Shown piece by piece: positions 917 through 7,246 of a stretch of DNA of 64,000 nucleotides (position 1 is its first letter; every line of letters starts with the position of its first letter). The stretch covers positions 1 to 64,000 of the forward strand of contig NZ_JACHIK010000019.1 in assembly GCF_014203155.1 (NCBI RefSeq). Reading direction: 5' to 3'. The DNA comes from Shinella fusca (GTDB taxonomy: Bacteria > Pseudomonadota > Alphaproteobacteria > Rhizobiales > Rhizobiaceae). The position numbers and the translations under genes were made by a program. Under the pieces are notes generated by a model that ran no database searches, had not been told where the DNA came from, and saw only the letters and a list, made by a program, of their open reading frames with translations.

Positions 917-1690
917 TCAGTAGAGCGTGCGCAGGAGGTCCCGCGCGGTTCCGGCGAGGTCGTCGGCCTTGCGGCTTTCCGAGACCAGCGCATAGGCGAC
1001 GTCGCCGATCTGCCAGTAGGCGGCGCGGGCATTGTCGGCGTGGAAGAGCAGGACCTGCTGCACGGCGAAGGAGCCGGGGCGCACGGCGAAGAGCGACAGG
1101 CGCTCGCCCTTTTCCGGCTCCAGTTCCAGCTCCACGCTCGGGCCGTAGACGGAGGGGTAGACCTGCGCGTCGATCACGCTCCAGCCCTCCGGCAGGTCCG
1201 GCAGGACGATGGCCGTCGCGGAGCGGATTTCCGCCGGGTCGAAGCCGTCGGTCTCCGGCTGCGATGCCATGGCGTCGCGCACGAGCGTGGTGCGGTGCGC
1301 GCGCACGGCCTCTTCCACGAAGGCGGGCGGCGGGGTGGAGGCGATGACCTCCGTGGCGCCGAACGGGCCGAAGGCGGCATGGGCCGCCCAGCCGGCGGCG
1401 ACGAAGAGGGCGATGGTGGCGGCGCGGCGCAAGCCCGTGAAGACGCGGCGGCGCGACAGCGAACGCTCCAGGAGCCGCGCGGCCTCGCGCGTCGCCAGTC
1501 GGCCCGGCGTGCGGTGGTCGGCGAGCGCCAGGCGCAGTTCGTCGCGCACGCGCAGGTCCTTCATGATCTGCGCGGCGACCTCCGGCCGTTCCGAGAGATA
1601 GGCTTCCACCTCGATGCGCCGGCCGACGGCGAGCTGCTCGTCGACATAGGCGTTGAGGTCGGATTCGAGGATGGGATCATTGCTTGTCAT
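917..1690 (-). CDS. Anti-sigma factor, single-pass membrane protein
   Basis: This 257-residue protein has a cytoplasmic N-terminus (about residues 1-89) beginning with a DLNAYVDEQL segment typical of anti-sigma domains. One membrane helix lies at about 90-108, followed by an extracytoplasmic domain of about 150 residues. It overlaps the 3' end of the ECF sigma gene by 14 bp on the same strand, the usual arrangement of a sigma/anti-sigma pair. It should hold the sigma factor at the membrane until an envelope or periplasmic signal is sensed. No cysteine-rich zinc motif (ZAS HxxxCxxC) is visible in the N-terminus, so sensing is unlikely to be by direct thiol oxidation. The signal is unknown. Confidence 0.85.
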   Translation of the reverse strand: MTSNDPILESDLNAYVDEQLAVGRRIEVEAYLSERPEVAAQIMKDLRVRDELRLALADHRTPGRLATREAARLLERSLSRRRVFTGLRRAATIALFVAAGWAAHAAFGPFGATEVIASTPPPAFVEEAVRAHRTTLVRDAMASQPETDGFDPAEIRSATAIVLPDLPEGWSVIDAQVYPSVYGPSVELELEPEKGERLSLFAVRPGSFAVQQVLLFHADNARAAYWQIGDVAYALVSESRKADDLAGTARDLLRTLY

Positions 1691-2222
1691 CGCCAGTGCC
1701 TCCGACGAGTCTGAGATGGGTGCCCGGGCCGGCCCGCTCGCCCTGCTCGAAGGCGCGCAGGCGCTGGCGCGCGCGGGCGACGCGCGACATCAGCGTGCCG
1801 ACGGGAATGCCGAGCGCCTCGGCCGCCTCCTGGTAGGAAAGCTCCTCGATGGCGACCAGGTGCAGGGCCGCGCGCTGCTCTTCCGGCAGGGCGAAGAAGG
1901 CGTTGCGGAGCTGCGTGAGGCGCACCGAGTGATCCTGCCCGGGCGGGGCCACGACCTCGGCGATCTCGGCGGCGGCATCGTGGCGGCGCTCCTGCGAGCG
2001 GCGCTGGCGCAGCCGGTCGACATGGGCATTGTGCAGGATCGACATCAGCCAGTTGCGCACATTGGCGCCGGTGCGGAAGGTTCCCTGCCGCTCATAGGCC
2101 TTCACGAGCGCGTCGTGCACGAGGTCTTCGGCCTCGTCCGCATTGCGCACGAGCGAGAGCGCATAGCGCCGAAGCGCGCCGAGCTGGCCGATCACGTTGA
2201 AGCCGGGTGTCTTTCCGTTCAT
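1677..2222 (-). CDS. ECF-type sigma-70 family RNA polymerase sigma factor
   Basis: The 181-residue product has a sigma region 2 (about residues 15-80, with DEAEDLVHDAL and the NVRNWL segment) and a sigma region 4 helix-turn-helix (about 105-158, with YQEAAEALGIPVGTLMSRVARAR). Regions 1 and 3 are absent, which defines the ECF group. It is the first gene of a two-gene unit with the overlapping membrane anti-sigma factor, which presumably restrains it. The ATG at 2222 follows a purine-rich CTGGGGC stretch. ECF subgroup and regulon cannot be assigned by eye. Confidence 0.92.
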   Translation of the reverse strand: MNGKTPGFNVIGQLGALRRYALSLVRNADEAEDLVHDALVKAYERQGTFRTGANVRNWLMSILHNAHVDRLRQRRSQERRHDAAAEIAEVVAPPGQDHSVRLTQLRNAFFALPEEQRAALHLVAIEELSYQEAAEALGIPVGTLMSRVARARQRLRAFEQGERAGPGTHLRLVGGTGDDKQ

Positions 2223-2353: not shown

Positions 2354-2578
2354 TCAGCAGAGCGGCGAGCGGTTCATCAGCATGATGTCGCTCGACGTCA
2401 GCGTGACGCGCGACGGCTCGTCGATCTGGTCGAGCACGGCATGCAATGCCTTGTCCAGGCAGAACTCGGCGACCTCCGCGTTCAGCGACTTTGCCGATTC
2501 CAGCGCGAAGGCGACAAGCCTTGCCAGCGCCATCAGTTCATGACTGCGGTCTTCACTCTCGATCGTATCGATGTCCAT
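2354..2578 (-). CDS. Small hypothetical protein, 74 residues
   Basis: This is an acidic, largely helical small protein of unknown family, with start ATG at 2578 behind a GGGGGCAGGGAC purine-rich site. Two heptad-like hydrophobic stretches (ELMALARLVAFALESAKSL and AEFCLDKALHAVLDQI) suggest a helical bundle. It lies 131 bp upstream of the ECF sigma gene on the same strand. I considered the general stress anti-sigma factor NepR because of size and position, but the NepR core motif is not present. Soluble and cytoplasmic by appearance; function unknown. Confidence 0.7.
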   Translation of the reverse strand: MDIDTIESEDRSHELMALARLVAFALESAKSLNAEVAEFCLDKALHAVLDQIDEPSRVTLTSSDIMLMNRSPLC

Positions 2579-2696: not shown

Positions 2697-3410
2697 TCAG
2701 GTTTCCGGTTGATCTGCCGCCATGCGCCACAGAGATGTCGCCCGAAAGCGCCAGTCTCCCCGTTTTGCAGGGCTTTCCGTGCCGCAATCGCGAAGCGCGG
2801 CGAGGAGGGCGAGTGCATCTTCCCGCTTTCTGTCCACATTTTCTGCGAGGATAAGTTGTATCAATTCGGTGCGGTTTTCCGCAAGGCCAGCCCCGCTGAG
2901 GATCGCGGGCCAGGTCCGGTCCTTGTAGAAGAGGGCGCGGGCGGCGGTGCGAAGGCGTTCCAGGTCTTTTCCGCCGAGGCGTCCCAGCGTCTCCAGTCGG
3001 TCGAGCGTCGCTTCCACGTTGACGAGGGCGAGCGAGAGGGCGGGATAGCCGAGCTCGGCCGGCCCGTGCAGCAGCGCGACATCCGCGTCGTCGACACGGC
3101 GGCCGCTTGCATAATCCTCGTAGATGGCGCCGATGCCGATCATGCCGAAGGTGTCGCATTCGGCTGCCCGCAGCGCGCCCATGCTGGCCGCGCCGAAGAC
3201 GGCGACACCCGCCTCCAGCGCATAGAGGATCTCCTTGTGCCAGACGGGCGCGACATGCTCGAAATTGCCGTCGACGATGCCGATGGCCGTTGCGCCTGCG
3301 CGCACCGCGGCAAGAACGTCGCCATGGGCGGCCGGCGGGCGGGCTTCGACCGCGCCGGCGCAAAGGCGGGGGGCATCGGGCAGGCTGGGGCCGGCGAAGA
3401 GGATCTTCAT
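2697..3410 (-). CDS. TfuA-like protein (YcaO partner)
   Basis: The 237-residue protein carries the TfuA domain: a start like KILFAGPSL, the HGDVLAAV segment (29-36), GAASMGALRAAE (about 73-84), IYEDY (96-100) and HGPAELGYPALS (about 115-126). TfuA was named from trifolitoxin biosynthesis in Rhizobium, and TfuA proteins assist YcaO enzymes in making backbone thioamides (methyl-coenzyme M reductase and thioamitide peptides are the studied cases). The start codon overlaps the YcaO stop as ATGA, so the two are translationally coupled. It is the last gene of the peptide-modification unit; nothing further downstream on this strand looks like a peptidase or exporter. Confidence 0.93.
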   Translation of the reverse strand: MKILFAGPSLPDAPRLCAGAVEARPPAAHGDVLAAVRAGATAIGIVDGNFEHVAPVWHKEILYALEAGVAVFGAASMGALRAAECDTFGMIGIGAIYEDYASGRRVDDADVALLHGPAELGYPALSLALVNVEATLDRLETLGRLGGKDLERLRTAARALFYKDRTWPAILSGAGLAENRTELIQLILAENVDRKREDALALLAALRDCGTESPAKRGDWRFRATSLWRMAADQPET

Positions 3411-4615
3411 GGCGTTCCGAACACCATGCGGGACAGCGCGCGGGGGCCGACGGCATGGCGGCGTGCGCCTTCGGGATTTTCAAGGGCGGGCACGACCATC
3501 TTGACCACCGAGACGGGAAGGGAGGCATCGCCGAGCGGCACCGCGACGACCGGGCCGATGCCGGCCGCCGCCAGCCGCTCCAGGCACCAGGCGAGCAGCG
3601 CGGCCGCATCGCCCGACGGAGCGGGGTAGGCCTTCGCCGGCCGGGGCCGGGCCTCGAAGAGCGCGAGCGTCTCGGCCGGCAATGGCCGGGTGAAGGTCTC
3701 GGCGAAGAGGTCGTCGCGCGCCCCGCTGATGAAGGTCAGCCGCGACTGGGCGACCTCGGTGAGCGCGCGGATGGCGGCCCGGGCGGCGACGGGATGGGTA
3801 CCGTAGCCGATCGTCGCATCGTGGAAGAGCGGGCGCTGCCGCTTCAGGATGCCGTTTTCGGCAAGCACGGCGGCATAGGTGGGAACGGCGAGGTCGCTGG
3901 TGATGTCGAAGAGGCGAAGGTCGAGGCCGCTGCCGTGGAAGCGGGCGGCAAGGTCGTTGACGACGGGACTGGCAAGGCTCGCGGGATCGATGGCGGCCGC
4001 GAGGCGGCTTTCGCGTGGCAGGAGGCGCCACAGCCGGTCGGCATCCCGCTCGATGCGCTCCAGCAGGCCGTGCAGCATGGCCTCCGTCTCGCAATTGCCC
4101 GAGGCGAGGCCGTCGGAGGATTGCCAGAAGCGCGGGGCCGTATCCGTGCGGTCGAGGCAGACGGCCTCCTGCGGCACCCAGACGCGCGCGCCCGTCACCA
4201 CGTCGCGGCCGGCCAGCCAGTCGAGCGTCTCGCCCTCGCCGACGAAAGGCTGGCCGGCGGCGATGAAGACGTCGAGCGGAAGGCACGTTTCGCCCGTCGC
4301 GGCGAAGTCGCGCCGGGCGGCGGAACGGGCGGGAACGAGCGGATCGCCCGCCACTGCCCGCTCCAGCGCCTCCATGGCGGCGGAGACCTTGGCGTCGATA
4401 TCCGTGATGCCCTTGCCCTGGTTGATGACGATCGAGCGGGCATTCGGGCTCACGGCGTTCCAGACGGGAATGCCGGGACGGTCGAGCCCCGTCAGGCGCG
4501 ACAGCCGGGTGATGCCGAAGCGGGGCAGCAGCGCCGCGATCCGGCGCCAGGTCTCATCGGGGCCGCAGATGCGGTCCGAACAGGCTGCCGCCGTTTCCGC
4601 GGTGCCGCGGCTCAT
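3407..4615 (-). CDS. YcaO-family ATP-dependent cyclodehydratase/thioamide synthase, TfuA-associated
   Basis: This 402-residue YcaO protein shows the family's ATP-site segments: acidic AMEALER (80-86), the SSDGLASGNCETEA stretch (about 166-179) running into LLERIERD (184-191), and a later GYGTHPVAARAAIRALTE segment followed by AQSRLTFISGARDD. YcaO enzymes phosphorylate a peptide amide oxygen to form azolines, amidines or thioamides. The TfuA neighbour points to thioamide formation, which is inference. Its ATG overlaps the stop of the upstream 79-residue peptide gene (ATGA), and its own stop overlaps the TfuA start, so peptide, YcaO and TfuA are made together. No separate E1-like partner or dehydrogenase is present. 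Confidence 0.93.
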   Translation of the reverse strand: MSRGTAETAAACSDRICGPDETWRRIAALLPRFGITRLSRLTGLDRPGIPVWNAVSPNARSIVINQGKGITDIDAKVSAAMEALERAVAGDPLVPARSAARRDFAATGETCLPLDVFIAAGQPFVGEGETLDWLAGRDVVTGARVWVPQEAVCLDRTDTAPRFWQSSDGLASGNCETEAMLHGLLERIERDADRLWRLLPRESRLAAAIDPASLASPVVNDLAARFHGSGLDLRLFDITSDLAVPTYAAVLAENGILKRQRPLFHDATIGYGTHPVAARAAIRALTEVAQSRLTFISGARDDLFAETFTRPLPAETLALFEARPRPAKAYPAPSGDAAALLAWCLERLAAAGIGPVVAVPLGDASLPVSVVKMVVPALENPEGARRHAVGPRALSRMVFGTP

Positions 4616-4851
4616 GTGTCCATGAAGCCGCCGGATACGTCCATGAACCCGCCGGACACGGCGTCCGCCGAGGAGGCGAGCGCGGCGAGATTGACGCCCT
4701 TGACCACAGACGCGCCGGCCTTGCGCAGGTCGTCCGCCGCCTTCAGCGCGCCGGTCGTCGGCGCGGCGATCTGCGTGACGGTGCCGGCATCGAGATCGGC
4801 GACCCAGAGGCCGTCATCGCCTTCGATCCCCAGAACTACAAGCCTTGCCAT
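4612..4851 (-). CDS. Candidate RiPP precursor peptide with tandem VSGGFMD core, 79 residues
   Basis: A short gene sits between the SARP/TPR regulator and the YcaO gene. It has a strong AAGGGAGGA ribosome site and a start 21 bp after the regulator stop, and its TGA overlaps the YcaO ATG. The product has a leader-like N-terminal part (MARLVVLGIEGDDGLWVADL, then an alanine-rich helix around 35-62) and ends in two exact heptads, VSGGFMD at 65-71 and 72-78, followed by a final Thr. The two copies are encoded by adjacent 21-bp repeats that differ only at two synonymous third positions. Size, position and a repeated C-terminal end fit a precursor peptide with two cores for YcaO-TfuA modification. 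That role is inferred; no precursor family was recognised. Confidence 0.8.
   Translation of the reverse strand: MARLVVLGIEGDDGLWVADLDAGTVTQIAAPTTGALKAADDLRKAGASVVKGVNLAALASSADAVSGGFMDVSGGFMDT
4618..4659 (-). repeat. Two adjacent 21-bp repeats encoding VSGGFMD
   Basis: Positions 4618-4638 and 4639-4659 are tandem copies that match at 19 of 21 bases. Both differences are silent (Val GTG/GTA and Gly GGG/GGC), so the protein repeat is exact although the DNA has drifted. This suggests selection on the peptide sequence rather than a fresh replication slip. Confidence 0.9.
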
Positions 4852-4872
4852 GTTCAGTCCTCCCTTGGAAAA

Positions 4873-6678: not shown

Positions 6679-7119
6679 TCAGATCCGCAGTTCCGGAGCG
6701 TTTTCCGCGCGGTCGCCGGCTTCGGTGGCGCTGGCCCGCGAAAGGGCGGTGGCGAGCTGGATGATCGACTTGCGCACGCCAGCATCCTCGATCTTCAGGA
6801 AGGCGCGGTTGAGGTCGAGGCCCTCCTTGGAGGAGACGAAGGTGGAGACGTCGCCGGTTTCCTGCCCGACGGCCGTGCTCGGCCCGGCGCTCTCGTCGTC
6901 CTGGAAGAAGAAGCTCGGCGGCACGCGGAAGACGTCGGAGATCGCCTGCAGGCGGCTGGCGCTGATGCGGTTGGTGCCCTTCTCGTATTTCTGCACCTGC
7001 TGGAAGGTCACGCCCAGCCGGTCGGCGAGCGCTTCCTGGCTCATGCCGACCATGAGGCGGCGAAGGCGGACGCGGGAGCCGACGAAAACGTCGATCGGAT
7101 TGGGTGTTTTCTTGGTCAT
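6679..7119 (-). CDS. XRE-family helix-turn-helix regulator (PraR/PhrR-like)
   Basis: The 146-residue protein has one Cro/C1-type helix-turn-helix (about 14-68, with RRLMVGMSQEALADRLGVTF and QVQKYEKGTNRIS), a VPPSFFFQDD segment, and a C-terminal helical region. This matches the rhizobial PraR/PhrR type of regulator. I use the ATG at 7119, which has a GGGAGA site at good spacing; an upstream in-frame start at 7203 adds an unconvincing N-terminus. It is the first gene of the unit that continues with the SARP-like regulator only 6 bp later, so two regulators lead the YcaO-TfuA operon. Whether it regulates that operon is inferred. Confidence 0.9.
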   Translation of the reverse strand: MTKKTPNPIDVFVGSRVRLRRLMVGMSQEALADRLGVTFQQVQKYEKGTNRISASRLQAISDVFRVPPSFFFQDDESAGPSTAVGQETGDVSTFVSSKEGLDLNRAFLKIEDAGVRKSIIQLATALSRASATEAGDRAENAPELRI

Positions 7120-7246
7120 GAGGCTTTCTCCCCTGAAGGCATGCCGGGGCATGGCGGGACACGAACACGCCGTCACTGTGCTTGAATCGCCCGGATGATG
7201 CAACTGCCGCGACCCGTATTTTCACCGTGCCGCGGCATCCGGCGGC

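Follow-up and report, generated by a model that had tools for sequence, protein, structure and literature searches.

The short gene located between a regulator gene and the YcaO gene of Shinella fusca probably encodes a RiPP precursor, in which the YcaO-TfuA pair would thioamidate the backbone of each core unit under the guidance of the leader, and housekeeping proteases would then trim the product. An earlier note on this DNA had proposed a RiPP precursor for this enzyme pair, and synteny, co-occurrence with one YcaO subfamily and several expansions of the core repeat strongly support that assignment. The gene sits in a block on the reverse strand of the window, the 64,000-nucleotide stretch of S. 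fusca DNA analysed here (Table 1). The short ORF between the SARP-like gene and YcaO was confirmed together with its GGGAGGA ribosome site, as were the ATGA stop/start overlaps between precursor and YcaO (4612–4615) and between YcaO and TfuA (3407–3410). The identities of both enzymes are borne out by their Pfam matches.

Table 1. Features of the precursor gene block in the window.
Feature	Coordinates	Strand	Basis
XRE-type HTH regulator gene, first gene of the block	6679..7120	-	HTH_3 3.2e-15; start taken at the ATG at 7120 with GGGGAGAAAG site (7203 in the ORF list)
SARP/TPR-type regulator, 599 aa	4873..6672	-	TPR Pfam matches
Ribosome-binding site of the precursor, GGGAGGA	4858..4864	-	sequence; ends 6 bases before the ATG
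Precursor peptide gene, 79 aa	4612..4851	-	ORF and relatives
Leader, residues 1–64	4660..4851	-	conservation across relatives
Core unit 1, VSGGFMD, residues 65–71	4639..4659	-	
Core unit 2, VSGGFMD, residues 72–78	4618..4638	-	
YcaO, 402 aa	3407..4615	-	PF02624 1.2e-63
TfuA, 237 aa	2697..3410	-	PF07812 8e-43
Predicted small protein 3´ of TfuA, 74 aa, conserved, unnamed	2354..2578	-	

The profile of the 74-residue protein 3´ of TfuA finds a match downstream in 42 of the 54 loci of the Rhizobiaceae sample described below, and the protein accompanies YcaO also in split clusters. The longer ORF around it (2354–2839) has no Pfam or NCBIfam match. This protein could be an accessory or an immunity protein of the cluster. 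Farther downstream (917–2222, reverse strand), an ECF sigma factor gene and an anti-sigma-like gene are located. The pair occupies the same place in seven of at least 31 loci from a scan of genome contigs; all seven are Shinella loci, and the pair is therefore not considered part of the cluster.

The last 15 residues of the precursor comprise two identical units followed by Thr79, and the core contains no Cys. The DNA of the two units differs at 2 of 21 bases, and both differences are synonymous changes at third positions. Codon changes among relatives are also mostly synonymous, with an uncorrected pN/pS of 0.27 over the two core units and 0.25 over the leader (55 pairs among 11 Shinella genes), which agrees with the earlier view that the peptide is being kept. 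Across the family, a conserved leader of ~60 residues is followed by a short, variable C-terminal core. In an alignment of 35 rows (relatives from the contig scan, three paralogs and the window), residues M1, G11, L15, D19, G46, V53 and G68 are invariant. The precursor has no match among the Pfam or NCBIfam families (only weak, unrelated matches among the 35 precursors scanned), and its profile has no match among solved structures. Its structural model is of low confidence (mean pLDDT 55.3, pTM 0.36). Residues 1–45 adopt a β-β-β-α arrangement with a pLDDT of ~60–73, residues 50–79 fall below 50, and an ordered leader with a disordered core is thus weakly predicted. Such an arrangement would suit a folded leader that docks on the enzyme, and a precedent for a folded leader docking on a YcaO is described in PMC12455567.

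The core repeat varies within and beyond Shinella. Eleven of the 12 YcaO-linked Shinella loci carry two or three in-frame units: two in the window, L007, L008 and L013, and three in L005, L006, L009–L012 and L014. The twelfth, L017, has a single unit. The nearest neighbours of Shinella on the YcaO tree are the Ensifer loci and those of one further genus (g55: L072 and L074), which have one copy of SGGFMDG or SGGYMDG. Paired VSGGFMD units are particular to Shinella, with one SGG[FY]MD in the sister lineages, and the repeat is therefore most simply explained as a duplication of a one-unit core. The single unit of L017 looks like a loss inside Shinella. Other tandem cores comprise FSGKLEA (four copies, L075), GLHEVAN/GLHEVAS (L085), GGFLEVS or GGFFEAS (L142 and L143, with four copies of GGFLEVS), a repeated 14-residue GLFERSE unit (L144, a precursor of 154 aa), FSGQFDISEA (L147), SDAASHHYFPNRG (L156, 237 aa; L158 is similar) and a 20-residue unit with SDAASHIFYG (five copies, L159). 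By a fixed score, tandem cores with a period of 7, 10, 20, 23 or 28 are present in 20 of 102 distinct precursors, a count that excludes the fragment rows of L158 and L159 and the duplicate L159_7199 (21 of 103 with the duplicate). Shuffling gave a repeat of this score in any of 20 shuffles for only 1 of 103 rows; short, imperfect repeats in L146 and L148–L153 fall below the threshold. On a YcaO tree of 99 rows, which was built by a quick method and has some long branches, the repeat label changes seven times through gains or losses, and at least five of these changes are forced by starred branches. Several rounds of tandem copying of the active core seem to have taken place in the course of evolution. 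Homologs without repeats, which the earlier note would have taken as evidence against a precursor, are in the majority (82 of 102 have no scoring tandem repeat), yet they do not contradict it because one core is the usual state.

Most tails share a short motif. The pattern [SAGN]-G-x-[FYLHMIV]-[DE], which was derived from the same sequences in which it was counted, occurs in 81 of 102 tails compared with 5.8% of shuffled tails. It is absent from 21 of 102 precursors, and several divergent clades, judged by eye, place Ser, His, Gln or Arg at the Gly position. Because this Gly is not universal and the motif has this origin, Gly is only a best guess for the modified residue. Two tandem precursor genes with different cores (LSGGFYDK, FSGGFYGK, GSGFMDK) were observed in L011 (6305–6502), L017 (6447–6641) and L088 (7312–7500).

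The leader, which is no less constrained than the core, is weakly predicted to fold. Both features would also fit a small protein that stays whole inside the cell and carries thioamides in its flexible tail, a protein modification comparable to that of McrA or uL16, instead of yielding a natural product. Modification of whole proteins by YcaO enzymes is described in PMC13063428. This reading is also favoured by the gene neighbourhoods: no peptidase, exporter or immunity gene recurs among the clusters found in at least 12 of 101 loci and named by eye, in line with what had been noted for the window. We consider an untrimmed protein unlikely, since repeatedly arisen tandem cores and a variable core better fit many small products, and the proteins known as substrates are of the conserved housekeeping kind. 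Two transporter clusters were seen in the same comparison. An amino-acid ABC uptake operon recurs in 13–15 loci only, and its position identifies these as the Shinella loci. A cluster of ABC-ATPase-like proteins (33 loci, both orientations) was set aside as an apparent merger of unrelated transporters.

The precursor and one YcaO subfamily coincide across genomes. The Rhizobiaceae sample consists of 297 genomes drawn from a larger group; 273 of them reach 90% completeness with contamination of no more than 5%. The precursor profile matches 49 of these genomes at 55 places. The YcaO subfamily of the system scores at least 447.9 bits at 50 places, which fall in precisely the 49 genomes that carry the precursor, and the next match scores 384.4 bits, a gap that is partly built in because the profile was constructed from 19 YcaOs of the precursor system. 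No Rhizobiaceae genome that is free of the precursor has a YcaO above this gap. TfuA is present in 49 of 49 genomes with the precursor versus 37 of 248 without it; the genomes are related, and these counts are not independent trials. G219 and G273, which belong to the same genus as the window, carry no precursor, no TfuA and no matching YcaO. The contig scan found at least 31 relatives of the precursor in Shinella, Ensifer, Rhizobium, Pseudorhizobium and Agrobacterium and in records named 'Rhizobiales bacterium'. In a sample of the order (397 genomes), 31 genomes match the precursor profile, 9 in Rhizobiaceae and 22 outside; 19 of the 22 were examined (G562, G632 and G644 were left out). A class-wide search with profile A6 (E 1e-5) returned only the window's own genome among 318, so within this sample the precursor family appears restricted to the order. 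Among 72,556 plasmid records, 55 contain a relative (27 Rhizobium, 10 Sinorhizobium, 10 Ensifer and 8 others). For the 30 matches listed from a plasmid gene table that describes itself as incomplete, no gene is annotated in 19, a hypothetical protein is annotated in 9, and 2 lie in unannotated records. Two hits were judged to be chance matches and excluded from the counts: L160 (G423; 18 bits, no neighbours) and a second match in L141 (24 bits).

The genes form a conserved block. Across the 54 loci of the Rhizobiaceae sample (55 places, two of which fall within one locus), the HTH gene is located upstream in 40, YcaO downstream in 49 and TfuA downstream in 45. Both enzymes lie downstream in 45 of 54. 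Outside Rhizobiaceae, the arrangement SARP-precursor-YcaO-TfuA was observed in 17 of 18 loci, and the 18th (L146) ends at a contig end. Five of the 54 loci consist of a SARP-precursor pair alone. Precursors without the enzymes alongside had also been regarded as evidence against the assignment, yet they do not overturn it, since every such genome examined carries both enzymes. In the contig scan, 13 of at least 31 loci have no YcaO directly after the precursor; with L035, in which TfuA is not alongside, the orphan or split loci number 14, and 13 genomes were searched directly (all but that of L024). Both YcaO and TfuA are present in 13 of 13, and the YcaO is of the precursor-linked subfamily in each (560–601 bits). 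Eight of the 13 carry HTH-YcaO-TfuA-small ORF in one place and SARP-precursor elsewhere; apart from a 16-bit SARP-like scrap (L167), there is no precursor or SARP match between HTH and YcaO in these eight. Three of the 13 carry HTH-YcaO-small ORF in one place and a TfuA back to back with SARP-precursor elsewhere. The genome of L018 has a complete cluster and an extra SARP-precursor pair, and that of L035 has SARP-precursor-YcaO and a second SARP-precursor with a divergent TfuA. For the orphan pairs of the Rhizobiaceae sample, one genome (G029, L066) is split likewise (L119), with its YcaO inside the precursor-linked clade of the tree, and the remaining four pairs are in genomes with a second, complete cluster, including the window's own (L118). 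Several of the orphan or split genomes also carry YcaO-TfuA pairs of other subfamilies. The gene set is thus kept even where linkage is lost.

Further observations concern these loci. In the window's own genome, L118 (contig C25, 34631–34834) holds an orphan SARP-like gene and a precursor with the core SAGHFDGH, with no YcaO-TfuA alongside. Four genomes that also contain the main family hold a different candidate precursor of ~47–52 aa ending in ALKFR or ALRFR (L121, L128, L130 and L132); it is flanked by a SARP-like gene on one side and a separate YcaO-TfuA pair on the other. Beside an orphan SARP-precursor with a divergent TfuA, L026 (6423–8886) contains ORFs that resemble, by eye, a selenocysteine lyase/cysteine desulfurase and a protein of the metallo-beta-lactamase fold; a link to sulfur supply is possible. 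A shared operator of the split SARP-precursor and HTH-YcaO-TfuA loci was also considered. Comparison by eye of 12 aligned regions upstream of the SARP gene with the region before the HTH gene (L119 and the window) gave no clear common motif.

The SARP/TPR gene precedes the precursor in 54 of 54, 18 of 18 and 31 of 31 loci (overlapping samples, the last of at least 31 contig loci), which amounts to 103 of 103 with orphans included. Control of expression probably lies with the neighbouring HTH and SARP/TPR genes. The label 'SARP-like' given earlier is plausible and unproven: the Pfam matches are TPR repeats, with TPR_19 in 16 of 19 relatives and a BTAD domain in only 1 of 19 (7.4e-6). The AlphaFold2 model of the protein (mean pLDDT 81.8, pTM 0.54) comprises an N-terminal mixed helix-strand region that is winged-helix-like, a central α/β region and a C-terminal TPR array. 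It aligns with the CadC periplasmic domain and with many TPR proteins solved with peptides, including Rap, and no SARP or BTAD structure is among the matches listed for the whole model. TPR arrays commonly bind peptides. Because the regulator is more constant than YcaO, the precursor could primarily serve this protein as an anti-activator or a ligand, with its link to YcaO-TfuA being secondary, and the alignment of the TPR part with peptide-bound structures is compatible with such a role. We regard it as quite improbable: the precursor and the YcaO subfamily share the same 49 genomes, whether or not they are linked, the tail repeats are typical of multi-core precursors, and the scores of the TPR matches are those typical of TPR arrays in general. 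These generic matches neither support product sensing nor speak against it. It is conceivable, though unlikely, that the neighbouring SARP/TPR protein reads the thioamidated core units as a ribosomal peptide signal, which core duplication would raise or diversify. If so, this would be an autoregulatory circuit based on a modified peptide in Gram-negative bacteria, and each orphan SARP-precursor pair would add a signal channel, with a single YcaO-TfuA pair serving them in trans.

Both enzymes resemble those of thioamide formation. The closest solved chain of YcaO is MJ1094 (6pe3; 1.2e-35, family profile 2.2e-61) and that of TfuA is 6xp8 (2e-28, family profile 9.3e-48), which we take to belong to the archaeal thioglycine pathway, in agreement with the NCBIfam names. 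The best NCBIfam matches are the models for McrA-glycine thioamidation, both below their cut-offs (YcaO, 196.5 of 365 against TIGR03266; TfuA, 172.5 of 235.2 against NF033432). Residues E82, E85, E186, E189, R190, E287, Q290 and R292 are invariant in 19 YcaO rows and presumably form the ATP/Mg motif; Ser76, Lys59, Lys163 and Lys195 are invariant in 19 TfuA rows. YcaO enzymes form several products (PMC13063428), and the core contains Ser, followed by Thr79, such that azolines or another modification might be made on the precursor instead of thioamides. This appears very improbable. The window core has no Cys, TfuA is present, and the recurrent neighbours (at least 12 of 101 loci) include no gene recognised by eye as a cyclodehydratase partner or a dehydrogenase. 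In addition, the azoline enzymes TruD, LynD and MusD score below MJ1094, although the archaeal YcaO 6ci7 is the lowest of the five chains and nearness to thioamide formers is therefore not uniform.

In the thioamidation mechanism that we infer, from docking to the thioamide and its position, trimming and the role of the product, the conserved N-terminal leader would dock on the YcaO-TfuA pair. In each C-terminal unit, YcaO would activate a backbone amide with the help of ATP; the best guess is the Gly in [S/A/G]-G-x-hydrophobic-[D/E], here around Gly67/Gly68 and Gly74/Gly75. The earlier note had proposed the Gly-Gly or Gly-Phe amides as possible sites, which would give SGGFMD-type products. 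TfuA would supply sulfide to give one thioamide per unit, and PMC13185837 describes a TfuA that hydrolyses ThiS-thiocarboxylate and feeds sulfide to YcaO. Because no protease or exporter was recognised in the block, housekeeping proteases would probably free the short thioamidated peptides, as proposed for thiovarsolins.

Several known systems are related to this cluster. The thioamitides, of the thioviridamide type, require further enzymes for dehydration, macrocyclisation and other tailoring, and no such gene was recognised by eye among the clusters in at least 12 of 101 loci. Linear azol(in)e peptides have a cyclodehydratase partner and a core rich in Cys, Ser and Thr, whereas no partner was recognised and no Cys is present here. 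The methanogen pathway to McrA thioglycine provides the best solved matches of both enzymes and modifies a Gly; its substrate is a large enzyme, unlike the small precursor described here. The gene tfuA is said to be named from work on trifolitoxin. Trifolitoxin (tfx, Rhizobium) is also a rhizobial RiPP (PMC9670871; PMC8816728), but the description in PMC9670871 sets it apart as an azol(in)e peptide encoded in a separate tfxABCDEFG cluster. The thiovarsolins of Streptomyces varsoviensis (varA-varY-varT) combine, as does the present family, a repeat-core precursor with YcaO and TfuA, with a repeat number that varies among relatives and no cluster protease in the account of PMC6511847. There, precursor, YcaO and TfuA are enough for two products, and cellular proteases may trim them. 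The thiovarsolins differ in their core (APR/GPR versus VSGGFMD and the other units) and phylum, the heme-oxygenase-like VarO was not recognised here, and the SARP/TPR gene is constant here. A Desulforegula cluster gave a thioamidated peptide in a heterologous platform (PMC9576775).

More than 500 TfuA-related clusters were found in Rhizobium by antiSMASH, at a time when the known thioamidated RiPPs of TfuA-YcaO came from Actinobacteria (PMC8120280). The loci of the present family are very likely among these clusters, and the precursors may sit unnamed in its supplementary tables; no SARP-linked leader family, repeat core or split cluster was noticed in its main text. The earlier statement that no such family is described stands for the open-licence literature searched, the supplements of PMC8120280 excluded, and extends to the SARP/TPR link, the repeats and the splits. 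We place the system within the known thioamide RiPP chemistry of YcaO-TfuA, to which it adds a new precursor family and a new layout.

An overlooked short gene of rhizobia and their relatives would thus provide the substrate of a widespread YcaO-TfuA pair. A fixed leader with swappable, naturally duplicated cores would offer a concrete substrate, with predicted masses, for many rhizobial pairs. The biosynthetic genes are retained jointly even where they have moved away from one another in the genome, and genome miners based on gene neighbourhood would miss them. The family also preserves an unusual record of core duplications in which the origin of multi-product precursors may be studied.
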